A model generated the notes under the pieces. It searched no databases, was not told where the DNA came from, and was given only the letters and a program-made list of their open reading frames with translations. DNA of 51,603 bases, taken from NCBI GenBank assembly GCA_028867595.1, contig JAGWGB010000009.1, forward strand, positions 1-51,603, read 5' to 3'. Below, piece after piece: positions 33,099 to 43,488 of this stretch (position 1 is the first letter of the stretch; every line of letters starts with the position of its first letter). This stretch comes from Nitrososphaerota archaeon. GTDB lineage: Archaea > Thermoproteota > Nitrososphaeria > Nitrososphaerales > Nitrosopumilaceae. The position numbers were made by a program, and so were the translations under genes.

Positions 33099-34421
33099 AT
33101 GTCACGCACTTCTCCACGTGTTGCTTACAAGGAAGTACTTTCTATGCTCAAGACACATAACCAATGGTTTGCAGATTCGATTCCGCTAATTGCAAGCGAG
33201 AATATCCCAAGTCCGGCAGTTAGAGAAGCAACTATTTCGGACTTTGCAAATAGATATGCGGAAGGTTGGCCCGGAGAACGGGTGTATGCGGGATGCATCT
33301 ACATTGACAAGGTGGAGTTCAAGTGTATGGAACTTGCCCAAAAGCTATTCAAGGCAGAGTTTGTGGATGTAAGGCCAATTTCGGGTGTTGTCGCTAACTT
33401 GGCAATCTATTCTGCATTTACCAATCCAGGTGATGTAATGCTTGCACCGTCTATTCCCTCAGGTGGGCACATATCACATGGTAAAAAAGAACATGCTGGC
33501 ACGGCAGGACTTGTACATGGATTAGACATAGAGTTCTATCCATTTGATGCAGAAGAAATGTCAATTGATGTGGATAAGACAAAGCAGAAGGTGCAGGAAC
33601 TAGAAAAGGCAGGCAGGATTCCAAAACTTGCAATGTTTGGAGGTTCGGTCTTTTTGTTCCCTCATCCAGTAAAGGAACTTGCTGATTTTCTGAAAAGTTA
33701 CAAGATGTTTGTAAATTATGACGGTGCCCATGTGGCAGGACTTATTGCAGGAGGTCAATTCCAAGATCCGCTCAGGGAAGGTGCTGATGCAATGACTATG
33801 AGTACTCATAAGACTTTGTTTGGTCCTCAGGGAGGGATGATCTGTTCATTTAACAAGTATGGGGATGAGATCAAAAGGGCAACATTTCCAGGTATGACAA
33901 GCAATCACCATTTGCATCACATGGCAGGAAAGGCCATTGCATTTGCAGAAATGTTGGAATTTGGCAAAAAGTATGCAGTGCAAGTAGTCAAGAATGCAAA
34001 AGCTTTAGCAGAAGATCTAAGCTCAGCAGGTTTTACAGTGCTTGGTGAAAAACGAGGATTTACAAAATCACATCAAATTGTAGTAAATGTTCTTTCATTT
34101 GGTGATGGGGGAACAATTGAGGCTGATCTAGAAAAGGCAAACATTATCGTAAACAGACAGCTTATTCCAGGAGACATCAAGGCTGGACGTAACTACTTCC
34201 ATCCAGGTGGCATGCGACTTGGAGTTTCTGAATTAACAAGACTTGGAATGAAAGAATCGGAAATGAAACAAGTTGCAGAGTTTATCAAGAGTGTAGTGGT
34301 AGATAAAAAAGACAAGAAAAAAATTGCAAAAGAGGTAAAACATTTCAGGAAGAAATTCCAAAAGGTCCGCTATTGCTTTGAAAGCAAGATGGGCGGATAT
34401 GATTATGTCAAGCTTCGTTAG
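33099..34421 (+). CDS. glyA: Serine hydroxymethyltransferase
   Basis: 440 residues. The fold-type I PLP enzyme features are visible: LIASENIPSPAVREA near the N-terminus, YAEGWPGERVYAGC, the cofactor Asp/His region VNYDGAHVAGLIAGGQF, and the Schiff-base Lys in MSTHKTLFGPQGG (about residue 237). The enzyme converts serine and a pterin or folate carrier to glycine and a one-carbon unit. The C-terminal tail (about 405-440; EVKHFRKKFQKVRYCFESK) is basic. It overlaps the convergent DP2 stop by TTAG. Confidence 0.95.
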   Translation: MSRTSPRVAYKEVLSMLKTHNQWFADSIPLIASENIPSPAVREATISDFANRYAEGWPGERVYAGCIYIDKVEFKCMELAQKLFKAEFVDVRPISGVVANLAIYSAFTNPGDVMLAPSIPSGGHISHGKKEHAGTAGLVHGLDIEFYPFDAEEMSIDVDKTKQKVQELEKAGRIPKLAMFGGSVFLFPHPVKELADFLKSYKMFVNYDGAHVAGLIAGGQFQDPLREGADAMTMSTHKTLFGPQGGMICSFNKYGDEIKRATFPGMTSNHHLHHMAGKAIAFAEMLEFGKKYAVQVVKNAKALAEDLSSAGFTVLGEKRGFTKSHQIVVNVLSFGDGGTIEADLEKANIIVNRQLIPGDIKAGRNYFHPGGMRLGVSELTRLGMKESEMKQVAEFIKSVVVDKKDKKKIAKEVKHFRKKFQKVRYCFESKMGGYDYVKLR

Positions 34422-37400
34422 GCATAATCTGTAAGCAATGCCTGACTACCATCTTCTTTGCCAAATACAAGTTCAAGCTCATCTAGTAAAGAGAGAACTC
34501 TACCTTTCAGGTATGGTTCAATCCTGTACTTGCCAAGCATTCTTCTTGCCAGTTTGAGATATTTCTGGACAGATGGTCTTGTCATTGTTTGAATTAGCTT
34601 GTTTTGGCATTCTAGACATTTTCCTGCTAGTGGAACGCGCCTATAGCTTGCACCGCATGATGTACACCTAAACGACTGGCCAGAATATGCCCTTAGGTTT
34701 CCCATAATGTCAGGCAAGAGATGCGTAGTCATAACCATAGATACTACCTCACTTGGATCTACTGCGTTGATTATGTCAGCAGTTCTAATTTGCATGTCAA
34801 GTTTTTCAAGAACTGATCCCAATGTAGAATACGCACTGCGAGATTTTGATGTAGTAAGAGTGCTAGTGCTATGTGTAAATCCATAACCGTAGAATTGCTT
34901 TTCAGTCTCCAGCCTTGATTTTAGAATTTCAACTCCTTTAATCTCACTTGCCTTTTCTTTTTGTATCGTAGCTTGGAAAAATGACAAAGGGTAACTGGTT
35001 ACCAATTCAAAGTTGTGGGCTTGTCTTTGGACCTCTTGTGGTATAACAATTGGCTGTACAAGTAATGGTGCATCCATCAGCCCACCAATTCTGTCAGACA
35101 GGAATAGTCTTGAAAAATTGAGCAAGCTGTCCATCAGTAGCATGATCGAGTCTGCATCACCGTCTGCATCTCTTCTTTTTGCCGAGTGCCATACTGCAGT
35201 ACCAAGACAGACTTGGGTGTCTGTATATCCAATTATCCTTCCTACAATGCCAACAGAAGTGTGTGGCGCAAGGCCAATAATTAGATGGCCAACTAGGTTA
35301 TCCGTATTTTTTACGTTATAGTATGGAGGATGGCCAAATAATTTTGCAAGTTCTTTATCAAGATACTGACAAACAAGTACAAGACTGTCACCGCATTCTT
35401 TTGGAATGATAACATCTTGGGTTTTTAGCTCAACTAGCTGATCTTGGTTTTCAAGTGGCTTGCCGTTTATGTCATGTGTATATCCAAGTTCGACAAGCTT
35501 TTCAGGTGTTGTACCAATCCAAGAAGGCTTGAAATGAGAAAGGGGTGCATTGGTTGCATCAAATCTAATAGTGCCGTCTTTGAATACATTGAGGTTCAAG
35601 CTTTGTCGTATGAGTCCTTTCTCCATTGGTTCGGGGACTCTATCTTGGTTGATTAGCTCCTTTACTCCCTTGAATGGTTCTTGGGCACGAATACCTGTTC
35701 TTTCCTGAGCAGAATAGAGTAGTTCTTTGAGAGGAAATGCACGATATGAATGAGCAAATGCTTTGACCTTACATTTGGGACAGCGTGATTCTTCTAGTTC
35801 ACTACGGCATTTTGGGCAGATAAATATCGTGACAGTTTTTGTTTTGCACCGTGGGCACACTATACTAATTGAGGGCAGATTGCAGTTTTTGCACGTCCTG
35901 TTGTTGATGTTACAGTAAAAGTTTGGCTGTTTTGATGCCTTGAGAAGGTCACGAGACGCGCCTCCCTTACTTCCCACAGGAAATAGTGTGTGCACTGGTG
36001 GCTTCATCTTTCGGAGTGCTGCTTTTTCAGGTCTACCAACTCTTACACCTATAGCAGTAGAAAACTTGGGCATTATCTTGATTCCAGATGATATTGAGAT
36101 TATCTCTGGAACAGACATCGTCTTGTCAAGTTGGATAGGTTTTCTAAAAAGCAGGTGGAAGAAAATTTTTGCTTCTGTGTCTTTTAGCATGATTGTACCA
36201 TCTACTAACTCGTGTGGGACGCCAAGTTTTTCCAGAATTTCTTTTGTAGTTACGGGATAAACTACAAGTTCAGATTCTTGCTTGATTGGGATAAGGAGTT
36301 TTTCTAGCTCGTCTGCAGTTATTTGGTCCCAATAGTATAGATAATGTGGATGAAGGCCTATTCCAAAATTAAGCGATATTCTAAATGCTTCCTCAAGATC
36401 AGGTATTTTATCCGTATAACTTAGCAGCTCAAGATCACTTGGCTCATATTTTGCAACCTTTTCCTTTAGCTCCTCAATCCAGAACTCTTCTACATACCCA
36501 GTGGGTACAAGTTCGGCATTGTTCTCAAGAAAATCACCATAGCTTATGAGAATGTCTCCAAGATGCAGAATTTTTTCAATGTGTGGCTTTAGATGAATTC
36601 CATGTGCAGTATCTCGTATCTTAACCACATTTCCGTTATCTAACCTGACAATTGGAGTATCAATCGAGTCAACAAATGCAATGGTTGCAGCTTTTCCCGG
36701 TATATCGAGTTTGATTTGGGTGCCTACTGCTATTACATGATCTAAAATCTCTGCAACAACTGGATGTATTCCAATAGATGCAAAGCCTGTATTGCATGCG
36801 CGCCCATATCGGAGCCTGAATCCACCGAGTTTTTTTGGCATTGAGAGAACTGACCTGCCTGTAATTACTTCCCTCATCCTATGGGCTGCTGCATCCTCAT
36901 CTCCTGTCTGAATAGCACCTTTTAGGTCCTTGAGCCATTCCCAGCCATCTAGCTTGAACAAATCAATCAGTTTTAGCAGCTTGCGGGATCTGCCAATGAG
37001 ACCATCATTGAGTACACGAAGTGCCCCGCCCCTGACTCGGTTTGTGCTTATTCTTGTCATGTTTCTATGGCTTACAATCTCAACTAGGTCGGTATCTATG
37101 CCGTCAAGCTCAACTGCTAGATTAGAAATGACTGTGACCACATCTTCGTCTGGAACATGGAACTGAAAGCTTCCTACCTCCCTTTCATACAGACGTAATT
37201 CTTCTACAAATCGACCTGTTTCATCATCGTAAGAGTTTGCCTTGTACGTGCCAAGTCCGGCAATCTTGCGCACATGGTCTGCAATAAGCATTGTAGATGC
37301 GGCTTCAGTTCCTCCTGCGGAGCGTATTGGTCCTGCAAATGAGACAGAGAGATATTCAGAGCCGTCTGCATTCTTCTTTATCTTAACCTCACTTATTCCC

Positions 37401-37792
37401 TGAAGCGGCGCTATGGTTACACCTTCTGTAACTATTGCCAGCCCGACACGTACAGCCAGATCAAGTTTTTCTTGAAGCGTTGTATCAGGGCCTGAATACT
37501 TGCCTTGTGCTATCTCTTCTGCTAGTTTGAGTGCTGCAAGCTCCTTTGTTGTTGTCTGAATGAGTTTTCTGAGGTTTTCTGTGACATCGATATCGTGCAT
37601 TTTTGATACACGATCAGATAGGTCAAATGCTATCTTGGGCTCCACCATCCCGGAAGAATCACAAAGGGTAGATTTGGCAGCTGCTGCCTTTTCAAAGACA
37701 ATAAAGACCTCATTGGATATTGTTTTGTAATAATCAAAATATGACTCTGGCATTGGGACCTCTTTGAGTCTCAATGCTACGTTTTCAGACAT
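34418..37792 (-). CDS. polC: DNA polymerase D large subunit (DP2)
   Basis: 1124 residues, full length and without an intein. The two-barrel catalytic core carries the invariant acidic motif AKRRDADGDADSIML (about residues 868-882). A Cys-rich zinc region (about 630-675; CNINNRTCKNC, IVCPRCK, FICPKCRSELEESRCPKCK) and a C-terminal zinc site (RCTSCGA...KCLECQ, about 1040-1062) are intact. The very C-terminus would carry a PCNA- and DP1-contact region. PolD is the replicative polymerase of most archaea outside Crenarchaeota. The gene begins one base after GGGP synthase and lies about 3 kb from the origin region. Confidence 0.97.
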   Translation of the reverse strand: MSENVALRLKEVPMPESYFDYYKTISNEVFIVFEKAAAAKSTLCDSSGMVEPKIAFDLSDRVSKMHDIDVTENLRKLIQTTTKELAALKLAEEIAQGKYSGPDTTLQEKLDLAVRVGLAIVTEGVTIAPLQGISEVKIKKNADGSEYLSVSFAGPIRSAGGTEAASTMLIADHVRKIAGLGTYKANSYDDETGRFVEELRLYEREVGSFQFHVPDEDVVTVISNLAVELDGIDTDLVEIVSHRNMTRISTNRVRGGALRVLNDGLIGRSRKLLKLIDLFKLDGWEWLKDLKGAIQTGDEDAAAHRMREVITGRSVLSMPKKLGGFRLRYGRACNTGFASIGIHPVVAEILDHVIAVGTQIKLDIPGKAATIAFVDSIDTPIVRLDNGNVVKIRDTAHGIHLKPHIEKILHLGDILISYGDFLENNAELVPTGYVEEFWIEELKEKVAKYEPSDLELLSYTDKIPDLEEAFRISLNFGIGLHPHYLYYWDQITADELEKLLIPIKQESELVVYPVTTKEILEKLGVPHELVDGTIMLKDTEAKIFFHLLFRKPIQLDKTMSVPEIISISSGIKIMPKFSTAIGVRVGRPEKAALRKMKPPVHTLFPVGSKGGASRDLLKASKQPNFYCNINNRTCKNCNLPSISIVCPRCKTKTVTIFICPKCRSELEESRCPKCKVKAFAHSYRAFPLKELLYSAQERTGIRAQEPFKGVKELINQDRVPEPMEKGLIRQSLNLNVFKDGTIRFDATNAPLSHFKPSWIGTTPEKLVELGYTHDINGKPLENQDQLVELKTQDVIIPKECGDSLVLVCQYLDKELAKLFGHPPYYNVKNTDNLVGHLIIGLAPHTSVGIVGRIIGYTDTQVCLGTAVWHSAKRRDADGDADSIMLLMDSLLNFSRLFLSDRIGGLMDAPLLVQPIVIPQEVQRQAHNFELVTSYPLSFFQATIQKEKASEIKGVEILKSRLETEKQFYGYGFTHSTSTLTTSKSRSAYSTLGSVLEKLDMQIRTADIINAVDPSEVVSMVMTTHLLPDIMGNLRAYSGQSFRCTSCGASYRRVPLAGKCLECQNKLIQTMTRPSVQKYLKLARRMLGKYRIEPYLKGRVLSLLDELELVFGKEDGSQALLTDYA

Positions 37793-39055: not shown

Positions 39056-39093
39056 TCAAACATGATAAATCACATTGGTAATGTTATGTAGTG

Positions 39094-39645
39094 ATGTTAG
39101 TAGACATTGATGTAGGGATGATTCTAGGTGTGATAGCGTCATTTGTGATTGGCCTTGCAAGCATAATTGTCTATAACAAGATCAAGCCACGCCTAGGTTC
39201 ACAGACAAATGAATTAAAAATTTTGGTAGAACGTGTACAATATTATGAAAATCTACTAATTGATATGAAAATTAGGCTAGATTCATTAGAATTAGTTAAA
39301 GAATCTGAAGAACCTATCCAGGCACAAATTCCAAAGCCAAAGGAGCAGAAATACGAGCCAGAGGTAGTAGCTGAGGTAAAAGAAGAGAAGGTTAAGGAGC
39401 GAACACATAACATGAATTTTGGAAGTGCGACAGAGTATGTGTTGAGATTAATCACAGAAAAGCCTATGACATCACGTGACATACAGGTCACAATAGGAAG
39501 AACCCGAGAGCACACATCACGGATGATGAAAAAGTTGTTTGAAGAAGGTCTGGTCGAACGAAATATGCAGACAAAGCCATTTACTTACAAGATTACAGAA
39601 AAAGGCCTTACCAGGATAGGGGTTCTAAAGGCTCCAACAACATGA
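39094..39645 (+). CDS. Membrane-tethered winged-helix regulator
   Basis: 183 residues from ATG 39094 (GTG 39091 adds one). One N-terminal membrane helix (MILGVIASFVIGLASIIVY, about 9-27) is followed by a coiled coil (about 38-65), a Pro/Glu/Lys linker (66-108) and a C-terminal winged helix (ATEYVLRLITEKPMTSRDI, recognition helix RTREHTSRMMKKLFEEG, wing FTYKITEKG). The anchor would place the DNA-binding domain at the inner membrane face. There is no extracellular sensor domain. A palindrome and CGTGAT repeats upstream suggest autoregulation, which is inference. Confidence 0.78.
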   Translation: MLVDIDVGMILGVIASFVIGLASIIVYNKIKPRLGSQTNELKILVERVQYYENLLIDMKIRLDSLELVKESEEPIQAQIPKPKEQKYEPEVVAEVKEEKVKERTHNMNFGSATEYVLRLITEKPMTSRDIQVTIGRTREHTSRMMKKLFEEGLVERNMQTKPFTYKITEKGLTRIGVLKAPTT

Positions 39646-39833: not shown

Positions 39834-39989
39834 ATGTCAGAGACAGAACAGCTCATAAAAATAACATCTGCCGGTACAATATCAATTCCCAAGGACTTTA
39901 GAAGGTATCTAGACCTACAAAAAGGAGATTATGTTAAGGTCCTAGTTGAAGGGGATCGTTTAGTGATTAAAAAGGCAATAATTTCCTAA
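39834..39989 (+). CDS. AbrB/SpoVT-like swapped-hairpin DNA-binding protein
   Basis: 51 residues: MSETEQLIKITSAGTISIP, then KDFRRYLDLQKGDYVKVLVEGDRL. The pattern K-T-G-x-I-x-I-P-K-x-R-x-L-x-L-x-x-G-D is that of AbrB/MazE transcription factors, which dimerise to form a swapped-hairpin barrel. It stands alone, without a toxin gene beside it, so a simple regulator is likelier than an antitoxin. A TATA-like TTTTTTATAATAAAA (39787-39801) lies upstream. Its stop overlaps the next, convergent gene by CTAA (39986-39989). Confidence 0.8.
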   Translation: MSETEQLIKITSAGTISIPKDFRRYLDLQKGDYVKVLVEGDRLVIKKAIIS

Positions 39990-40381
39990 GTTGTGTTTCT
40001 TTCTCTTTGGGCTAGCTTGAGAATCTGGTAGTTCCATTCTTTGCCCTTTCTCTCCCTACCTACCTTGCCTTTAAGGGCAAATCTAGAGAGATATGTTGAG
40101 ATTATGCTTAGTTTGATGGGTTCTTCGTATTCATCCTCATATTTTTCAAGGATCATGTTAGAGGTGAACTTTCCTAATGGATAGTATTTGTCTACTATGC
40201 CCCAGATCTTGGCCCCAATAGAATCTAATTGTGCCGATTCTTCAGGCTCTTCAATATTCATCAAATCCATTAATTCGAATATCTTTAGCATCTTGTCACG
40301 GGTAACATTGCCTTCCAGGCTAAAGTTGTATTTGGCACCATCCGTATCTTCCAAGTCTATTCGTATTCGTTTTCGGGCCAT
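39986..40381 (-). CDS. Conserved small protein beside the origin
   Basis: 131 residues from ATG 40381 (MARKRIRIDLEDTDGAKYNF; the longer frame from 40423 adds 14 unlikely residues). A beta-rich start is followed by helices (NVTRDKMLKIFELMDLM) and a segment resembling a winged helix (FTSNMILEKYEDEYEEPIKLSIISTYLSRFALKGKVGRER split over two elements). The C-terminus is basic. Location next to oriC and cdc6, transcribed away from them, hints at a DNA-related role, but I know no function for the family. Confidence 0.72.
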   Translation of the reverse strand: MARKRIRIDLEDTDGAKYNFSLEGNVTRDKMLKIFELMDLMNIEEPEESAQLDSIGAKIWGIVDKYYPLGKFTSNMILEKYEDEYEEPIKLSIISTYLSRFALKGKVGRERKGKEWNYQILKLAQRERNTT

Positions 40382-40540
40382 TGTGATCGATCCGGTTAAC
40401 ACCTTAACACTTGAACAGATCAAAGAAGAATTGTTAACAAGTGGGTTTGTTAACGTTCACTGCGTAACTCACGAACAGCCCTATTCCCAACCTTAACAGT
40501 CTAGGTTGGATTTCAGGTCTGCCCATGCCTAAAATCATGC

Positions 40541-40561
40541 CTGGAGTGGAAATTAAGGGGT
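40541..40561 (+). repeat. Origin recognition box ORB1
   Basis: 21-bp copy with the core GAGTGGAAATTAAGGGG. It differs from ORB2 at two positions, has the same orientation, and lies 61 bases from it start to start. Confidence 0.75.
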
Positions 40562-40601
40562 ATCCTGGGCATATTAACAATGTTAAGAGCCAAATTCACG
40601 C

Positions 40602-40622
40602 CTAGAGTGGAAATAAAGGGGT
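40602..40622 (+). repeat. Origin recognition box ORB2
   Basis: 21-bp copy with the core GAGTGGAAATAAAGGGG, the closest of the three to the published archaeal ORB pattern as I remember it. Confidence 0.75.
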
Positions 40623-40695
40623 CATTTTCGGCCTTTTCCTGCTCCAAGTTAACATTATGTTCACTAGTTGTTAACTTCAACTTAGGAAGACCCAC

Positions 40696-40716
40696 ACACC
40701 TTTCCTTCCACTCTAG
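40696..40716 (-). repeat. Origin recognition box ORB3, inverted
   Basis: Reverse-strand copy with core GAGTGGAAGGAAAGGTG; it faces ORB1 and ORB2 and borders the AT-rich tract. The G-string is interrupted by T. Confidence 0.7.
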
Positions 40717-40717
40717 C

Positions 40718-40770
40718 TTTTTTTAAAAAATTTTTTTTAAGAAAATAAAAATAATTAATGATATACTAAA
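40718..40770. other. AT-rich duplex-unwinding candidate
   Basis: A run of T and A (TTTTTTTAAAAAATTTTTTT-like) continuing into AAAATAAAAATAATTAATG, with only a few G or C in about 50 bases, between ORB3 and cdc6. Confidence 0.55.
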
Positions 40771-40820
40771 TTTGAATTAGTTATTCTGTTCTAATCTGAT
40801 TAGTATGGTAGAGTCCATAT

Positions 40821-42059
40821 GTGGACAGAGAAGAAATGGTGGTGTGTGGGTTAGTGAAAGATCCTATAGATAAATTATTAGACGATGCAGCAAGTGGCAA
40901 ATCTCTATTCAAAAACAGAGAAGTACTTCACTTTACTTTCATGCCAGATTTGGTATTGCATAGAGATGACGAACAGAAAAAAGTTACTCAATCACTCATA
41001 CCATTACTGAAAAGAGCAAGACCATCTAATTTACTGATATACGGAAAGCCTGGTACAGGCAAGACTTTGGTTGTAAAAAAAGTACTAGGTAAAATACAGG
41101 AACGGGTTAAAGACGGCTCATTTCCAATTCAACTACTTTACGCAAATGCAAAAGAGGAGACCACATTGTATGGCCTATTGGTAAAGTTTGGCCGTCAGTT
41201 AGGACTTGCATCACAAAAAGAGTTGCCGACAACTGGCTTGTCAATCAGTGAGGTTTTCAATAGATTGATTGCAGCAATAGAGAAGAACACACTCAATACG
41301 GTTTTTGTGGTCGATGAGATTGACTATCTGGCAGAACTTGTATCAAAAACAGGAAAAGATGTCTTTTATTCATTAACAAGAGCAAACGAGAGACTAAAGA
41401 AAGGCTCACTGACACTCATTGGAATATCAAACGACCTAACATTCAAGGAAAGGCTAGACCCAAGAGTCCTAAGCAGCCTAAGTGAGGAAGAGATTGTCTT
41501 TACCAACTATACAGTTAACCAGATTAAGGAAATCCTAACAGAGAGAATCAAAGAAGCTTTTATTCCAAATGTCGTAGATCAGGCGGCCTTGAACCTATGT
41601 GCAGCCATGTCAGGTCAAGAACATGGTGATGCAAGGCGTGCAATTGACCTGCTTCGTGTAGCAGGAGAGATAGCAGAACGCGAACAAGCCGATATGGTAA
41701 AAGAAGACCATATTCGCCGAGCCTCACTGAAGATGGAAGAGGACAAGGAGACCACCGCCCTTAATTCATATCCACTCCATGAAAAACTGCTTATCCTTGC
41801 AGTAATGAAGGCAAATGGAAGCACTACAGGCGAGATATACCAATCCTACAAGAATCTTTGCAAGACCACAAGACAGAAAGAACTCACACAACGGCGAGTT
41901 ACACAAATGCTAAGTGAGATTGAGATGACCGGATTAATCTCAGGCAAAATAATACATCAAGGCATGCATGGACGAACAAAAAAGTTTGCTTTGACACTAA
42001 ACCCCGAGACTGTAAAAAAGGCGTTCAAAGAAGACTTGGTCTTGGAAGATCTTCTGTAA
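40821..42059 (+). CDS. cdc6: Orc1/Cdc6 replication initiator
   Basis: 412 residues with GTG start (ATG at 40836 is the alternative). AAA+ motifs: Walker A GKPGTGKTLVV (about 75-85), Walker B VFVVDEIDY (about 161-169), sensor 1 LIGISND and sensor 2 HGDARRAIDLLR. The C-terminal winged helix (about 310-412; TTGEIYQSYKNLC, RVTQMLSEIEMTGLISGK) should bind the ORB repeats upstream. The protein marks origins and loads Mcm. Placement beside the origin is the archaeal norm. Its end is one base from the convergent DP1 stop. Confidence 0.97.
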   Translation: MDREEMVVCGLVKDPIDKLLDDAASGKSLFKNREVLHFTFMPDLVLHRDDEQKKVTQSLIPLLKRARPSNLLIYGKPGTGKTLVVKKVLGKIQERVKDGSFPIQLLYANAKEETTLYGLLVKFGRQLGLASQKELPTTGLSISEVFNRLIAAIEKNTLNTVFVVDEIDYLAELVSKTGKDVFYSLTRANERLKKGSLTLIGISNDLTFKERLDPRVLSSLSEEEIVFTNYTVNQIKEILTERIKEAFIPNVVDQAALNLCAAMSGQEHGDARRAIDLLRVAGEIAEREQADMVKEDHIRRASLKMEEDKETTALNSYPLHEKLLILAVMKANGSTTGEIYQSYKNLCKTTRQKELTQRRVTQMLSEIEMTGLISGKIIHQGMHGRTKKFALTLNPETVKKAFKEDLVLEDLL

Positions 42060-42060
42060 C

Positions 42061-43488
42061 TTAAGCTGTTTCAGTAAAGTCTTTTGTAAAAACCTTCATT
42101 GTAGCCAAGTTGACAATGATAGCTATTCCCGGAGTTGGGGTGATGCCAACACTTGCCTGATAGCCTGTTTGACTTTGCCAAGCTCCAGAGTTGACAATCA
42201 ATGTTCCTTTGTACATATCAAGGTCAACCACATGAACATGACCAGAATGAAAAATATCTGGAACTTCATTTATCACCATAAAGTCTTCACGCTCTGGAGC
42301 AATTGGAGTTCGCTTTCCGTAAATTGGACTAAGATGCCTTGTTTTCAATAATGCACGCATGGCTTTTGCCGGTTGTGCGTAGCTTAAGCCAGGAGTGGTT
42401 CCAACCACGTCATCAAGGCTCTGGCCATGAAACATCAATACCTTTACTCCATTAAGATCTAAAAACGCAGGATTTCCTAACATGAAAAAATTCTCTCTAT
42501 TCCACAAACTCATGTTGTGTTTTTCTGGTATGGCAGGCTGTGGAAGGGCTCTTCTGCCAGGATCATGGTTCCCGGGAATTATGAAAGTCTTGATGTGTTT
42601 TGGAACTTTGTCAAGCATTTGAGCTGCCTTTGCCATCTGTTCATCAATATCAGTCAAGAGTAGCTCCTTGTCTTGGTTTGGAAAGATGCCAACCCCATCG
42701 ATTACATCCCCACATATCAAAAGAAATCGAACCTTTCTTGCTATCGGATCAGGGCTTGAAAGCCATGAGATAAACTCTGCAAATTCTTTTTCCATAAAAT
42801 ACTTGCTACCAATGTGAATGTCAGATATCAAAACTGCATACGTCTCAGTTTTTGAGCGATTCGATATGTGGTCTGGAATATCCGGCACCACAAGCTCCTT
42901 TACAATAAACCCGCCATTCTTGCCGTTTGTAATGCCTGCCATTACAAATTGGTCCATCAAGAGCGAGTTTGCAGTCTCTTGCAATTCTTGGTTGAATACT
43001 AACATTTCAAGAGAGCCTGTAGGATCATCTATCACAAGTTTGGTGACATCTCGCTCACTTTTTCTATCCATTAAAAGACCTGCAACAAAAGTTTCCTCGC
43101 CTAACTTACCTCCAGTCACATTGCTAATTGATGTAAGCTTTTTTGCCTGAGACCTTTGCATCATTATTTTAAGCAATTTCGAATACCTATCAGAAAATAA
43201 AGTCATAAAACCGTCTATCCCTTCTGCAGAAGTGACTTTCTTCGAAGGATCAAACAGTATGGTATGTTTGTCTTCTACACTTCCATCCACTTCTGACTCT
43301 ACGAACATTTTGAGGTCGCTCTGGTTTATCAAAAACAAATTTTGTTTGGCTTTTTCGCGAATAACTTGCTTGATTATATTCTGAAGTTCGTTTACATCTA
43401 TCCTCTCTAAAATTCTAAAGGCATCCGGATGAATCTGAAATCCCTTGCTTAACGCATATGTTATTGCAGAGGATACCTCTTCTTTCAC
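42061..43488 (-). CDS. polB: DNA polymerase D small subunit (DP1)
   Basis: 475 residues. The C-terminal two thirds are a calcineurin-like phosphoesterase with intact motifs: ISDIHIGS, CGDVIDGVG, IPGNHDPGRR, FHGQSLDD, and SGHVHVVD. In PolD this gives the 3'-5' proofreading exonuclease. An OB-fold lies before it (about 130-210; VAGLLMDRKSERDVTKLVIDD), and the N-terminus is a helical domain. DP1 pairs with DP2, encoded about 5 kb to the left on the same strand. It is convergent with cdc6 with a one-base gap. Confidence 0.95.
   Translation of the reverse strand: MKEEVSSAITYALSKGFQIHPDAFRILERIDVNELQNIIKQVIREKAKQNLFLINQSDLKMFVESEVDGSVEDKHTILFDPSKKVTSAEGIDGFMTLFSDRYSKLLKIMMQRSQAKKLTSISNVTGGKLGEETFVAGLLMDRKSERDVTKLVIDDPTGSLEMLVFNQELQETANSLLMDQFVMAGITNGKNGGFIVKELVVPDIPDHISNRSKTETYAVLISDIHIGSKYFMEKEFAEFISWLSSPDPIARKVRFLLICGDVIDGVGIFPNQDKELLLTDIDEQMAKAAQMLDKVPKHIKTFIIPGNHDPGRRALPQPAIPEKHNMSLWNRENFFMLGNPAFLDLNGVKVLMFHGQSLDDVVGTTPGLSYAQPAKAMRALLKTRHLSPIYGKRTPIAPEREDFMVINEVPDIFHSGHVHVVDLDMYKGTLIVNSGAWQSQTGYQASVGITPTPGIAIIVNLATMKVFTKDFTETA

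Follow-up and report, generated by a model that had tools for sequence, protein, structure and literature searches.

A probable replication origin beside orc1/cdc6 in a Candidatus Nitrosotalea-type archaeon, with an interleaved array of TTAAC half-sites

In the stretch of DNA analysed here (51,603 nt, hereafter the window), an orc1/cdc6 gene and a gene for a small winged-helix protein are divergently oriented, and the region between them carries ORB boxes, an array of TTAAC half-sites that interleave with the ORBs, and an AT-rich tract. The features, in window coordinates, are as follows.

39986..40381, minus strand: gene for an uncharacterised winged-helix protein of 131 aa, divergent from cdc6 across the probable origin; candidate binder of the array
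40383..40466, no strand: left conserved block, GATCGATC...GTTAAC...CTTGAACAGATCA...GTTAAC-N10-GTTAAC...TTCACTGC
40395..40454, no strand: left part of the array, with GTTAAC at 40395, TTAAC at 40404 and GTTAAC-N10-GTTAAC at 40433-40454
40493..40497, plus strand: TTAAC half-site, recognised by sequence and conserved position
40541..40561, plus strand: ORB1, CTGGAGTGGAAATTAAGGGGT, a perfect fit to the ORB pattern
40574..40587, no strand: inverted pair between ORB1 and ORB2, TTAACAATGTTAAG, with ~0.97 mean column conservation within the genus
40602..40622, plus strand: ORB2, CTAGAGTGGAAATAAAGGGGT, 61 bp from ORB1, a perfect fit to the ORB pattern
40648..40675, no strand: TTAAC half-sites that lie between ORB2 and ORB3, with 11-bp phasing in the family consensus
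40696..40716, minus strand: ORB3, CTAGAGTGGAAGGAAAGGTGT, inverted, with a conserved GGTGTGTGGG tail
40717..40800, no strand: AT-rich tract, by composition a candidate unwinding element and probably the cdc6 promoter region
40765-40781, no strand: conserved dyad in the AT-rich tract, ACTAAATTTGAATTAGT, pattern ACTAAATTTG(A/G)(A/T)TTAGT
~40827..40850, plus strand: ORB4, AGAGAAGAAATGGTGGTGTGTGGG, degenerate in the window and a clear ORB in sister genera
40857..42059, plus strand: gene for the Orc1/Cdc6 initiator, with GTG 40857 taken as the start in place of GTG 40821

The preliminary description of this DNA had named Orc1/Cdc6 as the neighbour of the repeats, an assignment confirmed by matches of the gene product to Pfam Cdc6_lid and Cdc6_C and to NCBIfam TIGR02928; a single copy of the gene was found in the genome, adjacent to the ORBs. 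In the longest ORF, the first in-frame start is GTG 40821, which overlaps ORB4. However, in most Nitrosotalea relatives the codon aligned with GTG 40857 is an ATG, and the genes of two relatives (L054 and L055) begin well downstream of the ORB4 element; GTG 40857, and not GTG 40821, is therefore probably the true start. The Cdc6 protein is 96% identical to those of the nearest MAGs and 87-88% identical to that of N. devanaterra, and among named records, Candidatus Nitrosotalea genomes and MAGs related to them are the closest. Both PolD subunits are encoded farther out (34418-37792 and 42061-43488), the small-subunit gene and cdc6 being syntenic neighbours. Synteny with the origin is seen in nearly all family loci for an AbrB/MazE-type protein of 51 aa (39834-39989) and for a second winged-helix protein (39091-39645) that is probably membrane-anchored. 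N. devanaterra also has a second Orc1/Cdc6 paralogue, 32% identical (L149; G008 118300-120650), which was considered as the mark of another origin and rejected, there being no ORB or GTTAAC upstream of it. No paralogue of this type was found in the 170-contig draft to which the window belongs, and since that draft has about 97% completeness, another cdc6 or origin could be missing from it.

Three 21-bp ORB-like repeats, two direct and one inverted, had been reported at this locus, and they are present as described and at a frequency beyond that expected from shuffled sequence. With up to three mismatches allowed, the ORB pattern has three matches in the window, as compared with a mean of 0.03 in dinucleotide shuffles of the window, none of which reached three in 100 trials. 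The boxes carry the TGGAAA core and G-string, and occur in both orientations at the locus, as is characteristic of Orc1/Cdc6-ORB origins. The earlier count of three is one short, as it leaves out the degenerate ORB4 at ~40827-40850, and the TTAAC/GTTAAC array at 40395-40675 had likewise gone unremarked in the preliminary description. In sister genera, a further direct ORB is found near the cdc6 start, of which the window version is the degenerate ORB4, and the GGTGTGTGGG tail is also kept at ORB4 in the Nitrosotalea alignment. A search for further ORBs, as the preliminary description had suggested, was run on the whole draft genome (1.68 Mb, 170 contigs), where ORB1 and ORB2 are the only perfect matches. 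Relaxing the search to three mismatches gave 18 matches, versus 12 for a reversed-pattern control, and the looser matches are therefore mostly attributable to chance. The two best off-locus matches, C98:384 and C11:28555 (1 and 2 mismatches), have no cdc6 alongside and were treated as chance occurrences; one of the two falls within an apparently coding stretch, and the other at a gene end.

The origin prediction was, according to the preliminary description, to be refuted if close relatives did not conserve the 21-mers, and the comparison ran to the contrary. When 98 loci of the family, representing about 20 genera, were set to a shared coordinate in which ORB1 is zero, the ORB1-ORB2 pair was present in 97, always 61 or 62 bp apart; in most loci an inverted ORB3 lies at a distance of about 140-158 bp from ORB1. 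In most other families of the order, a tandem pair of ORBs of the CTCCAGTGGAAATAAAGGGGT type, about 60-64 bp apart, stands upstream of cdc6. Conserved ORBs at a fixed geometry are found both within the family and in other families of the order; outside the family, one locus (L144) showed no ORBs. In the complete genome of N. devanaterra, the ORB pair is unique. Nucleotide skew was followed in two genomes. In a complete relative of 1.232 Mb with cdc6 at position 322 (G019), the minima of cumulative GC, AT and purine skew all fall at 613.0 kb within the 800 kb covered, and the point opposite the origin, at 616.1 kb, is ~3 kb away; the pattern fits one origin at the cdc6 locus. The skew of N. devanaterra is noisy, with the origin bin ranked 226th of 361 for GC and 175th for MK, and does not single out the locus. 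The right-hand replication arm of G019 (leading strand; 0-800 kb) has a negative GC skew, contrary to the bacterial norm.

The region 40395-40675 contains 14 TTAAC/GTTAA half-sites in 281 bp, versus at most three elsewhere in the window, and the complete N. devanaterra genome has 12 half-sites at the origin versus at most six anywhere else in 1.8 Mb. Relative to ORB1, the half-sites are positioned at -146, -138, -108, -92, -49, +33, +42, +107, +118 and +129, and these positions are fixed within 1-2 bp across the family (about 20 genera). Of 24 genomes, 20 have the spaced pair GTTAAC-N10-GTTAAC at the origin, as judged by comparing its places with those of cdc6, and the pair occurs just twice elsewhere. 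Conservation of the TTAACAATGTTAA element within the genus matches that of the ORBs (about 0.97 mean column), whereas the bases between elements drop to 0.5-0.7. The array is found in the Nitrosopumilaceae and, in part, in three other families (f2, f3 and f7), while most of the remaining families have the same ORBs without it. Given that most ORB-bearing families are without the array, it seems either to have been added to an older ORB origin in particular lineages, or to be ancestral and lost in the others. A search of the open literature, the original N. maritimus origin-mapping paper (Pelve et al. 2013) aside, found no description of a TTAAC array or of a cdc6-linked wHTH gene.

The leftmost half-sites lie in the left conserved block, of which a second, inverted copy (GATCGATC ... 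GTTAAC) is found beyond the AT tract in L054 and L055 (L055:4830-5000; upstream of cdc6 in L054), with weaker copies in several other loci. Because the inverted copy stands across the AT tract, the left block is taken to be a DNA element rather than coding sequence. The inverted copy makes the origin a quasi-palindrome in L054 and L055. A coding reading of the block, as part of a plus-strand ORF at 40188-40496, was rejected since the frame is broken by single-base gaps in relatives, and a search of the block for structured RNA gave no Rfam match up to E = 1. The AT-rich tract, which had also been reported to lie next to the repeats, is real: 64 of the 70 bases at 40718-40787 are A or T, a value that is the joint highest for any 70-mer of the window, and in composition it corresponds to the AT-rich element that stands beside the ORBs at Orc1/Cdc6-ORB origins. 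The conserved dyad within the tract may represent a cdc6 promoter or operator element.

In the case of the divergent winged-helix gene, its position opposite cdc6 at the origin was conserved in 97 of 97 family loci tested. A profile of the protein matches 80 of the 81 class genomes, with one copy in nearly all of them, and 91 of 151 in a sample of the phylum, 25 of these 151 being Nitrosopumilaceae. Outside the order, a divergent winged-helix/cdc6 pair 0.3-0.9 kb apart is present in 8 of 11 class genomes and 19 of 42 phylum genomes, and so extends to other classes of Thermoproteota, all of these genomes chosen for having the winged-helix gene and with places compared by hand. For the 131-aa protein, no Pfam or NCBIfam family scored above threshold, and comparisons meant to name it by sequence gave only sub-threshold matches to repressor families. 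The AlphaFold2 model has a confident C-terminal winged helix, with a pLDDT of about 90 over residues 60-120, and a less certain beta-beta-alpha segment ahead of it; Foldseek matches are to generic winged-helix repressors, with none below E = 0.001. We tentatively regard this protein as the leading candidate for a binder of the TTAAC array. Counter to this assignment, the relative L114 keeps the protein while most array sites are lost, and GTTAAC clusters are missing from several families of the order that have the protein.

On the basis of sequence, 40383-40857 is very probably oriC, the origin from which the chromosome of a Candidatus Nitrosotalea-type archaeon is replicated. This interpretation, which the preliminary description had put forward, is supported by perfect ORBs that are unique in the genome, by their fixed geometry in the family, by the single adjacent cdc6 and by the layout in N. 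maritimus. For the latter, a relative genome of 1,645,259 bp (G046), which we take to be that of N. maritimus SCM1, has at its end the winged-helix gene, the GTTAAC pair, ORB1, ORB2 and ORB3 in the same order, with cdc6 then at position 137. The N. maritimus oriC shares with the window the winged-helix gene, the GTTAAC pair, the inverted ORB3 and cdc6, and its ORB1 and ORB2 are 62 bp apart, whereas the spacer sequences have diverged. Because G046, if it is N. maritimus with its single mapped origin, has these elements in the same order, the predicted origin is of a known kind, namely the archaeal Orc1/Cdc6-ORB origin (oriC1 type), and a Nitrosopumilaceae oriC. The N. maritimus origin is single and was mapped experimentally (PMC4010727, PMC5333045).

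What seems to be new at this otherwise known type of origin, judged from its sequence elements, is the second array together with its candidate binder. In Sulfolobus, a second motif, ucm, is bound by UBP and is required for origin activity, with ubp said to have been acquired recently in Desulfurococcales and Sulfolobales, and the authors raise the question of ucm/UBP analogues in other lineages (PMC12141716). The Sulfolobus oriC1 (Orc1-1, ORB1-3) is similar to the window in that ORBs lie by cdc6, an inverted ORB pair and an AT-rich element are present, and a second motif accompanies them (PMC12141716). However, ucm is one 11-bp site in the DUE, whereas the TTAAC half-sites are many and spread across the ORB cluster, and the neighbouring gene in the window encodes a winged-helix protein. 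The array is a candidate analogue of ucm in role, not in sequence. The oriC1 of Haloarcula hispanica also has an extra cis element in register with the ORBs, there affecting firing (PMC4010727), but this element is an enhancer formed by a G-rich inverted repeat inside each ORB, in contrast to the A/T-rich TTAAC sites that lie between or beside the ORBs of the window. For Nitrosocaldus cavascurensis, the origin is a prediction used to set the chromosome start, and no extra array was found described in the portions of PMC5797428 that concern it.

It is very improbable that the repeats act solely as operators through which the divergent cdc6 and winged-helix genes regulate themselves, with replication starting elsewhere. 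Every element lies between the two divergent genes, and the left TTAAC sites, which are 14-70 bp upstream of the winged-helix start codon, could regulate transcription; however, the distance of the GTTAAC pair is held more tightly to ORB1 (SD 0.73 bp) than to that start codon (SD 1.49 bp), and the ORB consensus is the general archaeal Orc1 site. Moreover, the skew turns opposite the locus in one complete relative (G019, 800 kb covered), and the locus corresponds to the N. maritimus cdc6 region (PMC4010727). A narrower form of this reading accepts the ORBs as a true origin, but has the TTAAC array function as a transcriptional operator, for autoregulation of the winged-helix gene and perhaps also of cdc6, independently of origin function. 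This is a possibility of some standing, given the closeness of the array to the winged-helix gene, the predicted winged-helix fold of the neighbouring product, and the arrangement of half-sites in inverted pairs, as for dimeric repressors. On the other hand, the sites extend across the ORB cluster, as far as about 290 bp from the start of the winged-helix gene, and their register with the ORBs is kept across about 20 genera.

The register also argues against the array being a partition site of the centromere type, at which a segregation protein would bind close to the origin, as a centromere needs no exact register with ORBs. The winged-helix protein AspA of pNOB8, which binds a palindrome upstream of its own gene (PMC5120986), is among the fold matches, but the match is generic (E about 0.02), the fold matches as a whole are not specific, and no ParA/SegA gene is present among the neighbouring genes examined; a partition site is thus unlikely. 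We also consider it rather unlikely that Orc1/Cdc6 itself makes further contacts at the extra sites, or that these are a methylation target, instead of sites for a second protein. They are interleaved with the ORBs, and GTTAAC is palindromic, as are the GATC sites in the left block, yet TTAAC is unlike the ORB core, families with the same ORBs are without the array, and a strict methylation target is improbable because many of the half-sites are not GTTAAC.

An origin role for the TTAAC array is quite plausible, if somewhat short of probable. At the predicted origin, Orc1/Cdc6 from the adjoining gene would bind ORB1-ORB4 with a defined polarity and, following the Sulfolobus precedent, the inverted ORBs and the AT-rich tract would direct MCM loading and strand opening, with two forks leaving the origin. 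The TTAAC/GTTAAC half-sites, in register with the ORBs, would most likely be sites of a second sequence-specific protein, one that may join the same nucleoprotein complex and help or gate initiation. More speculatively, in ammonia-oxidising archaea the winged-helix protein encoded opposite cdc6 might bind the phased TTAAC array and build a fixed-geometry initiation complex with Orc1/Cdc6, in which case it would represent a functional analogue of UBP/ucm of independent origin.

The Nitrososphaerota are among the most abundant archaea on Earth and, to our knowledge, the origin elements from which their replication is initiated have hardly been studied. The layout of the ORBs provides a ready set of predicted Cdc6 sites, and the precisely spaced TTAAC set, beside the gene for an unstudied DNA-binding protein, points to a candidate second origin factor.
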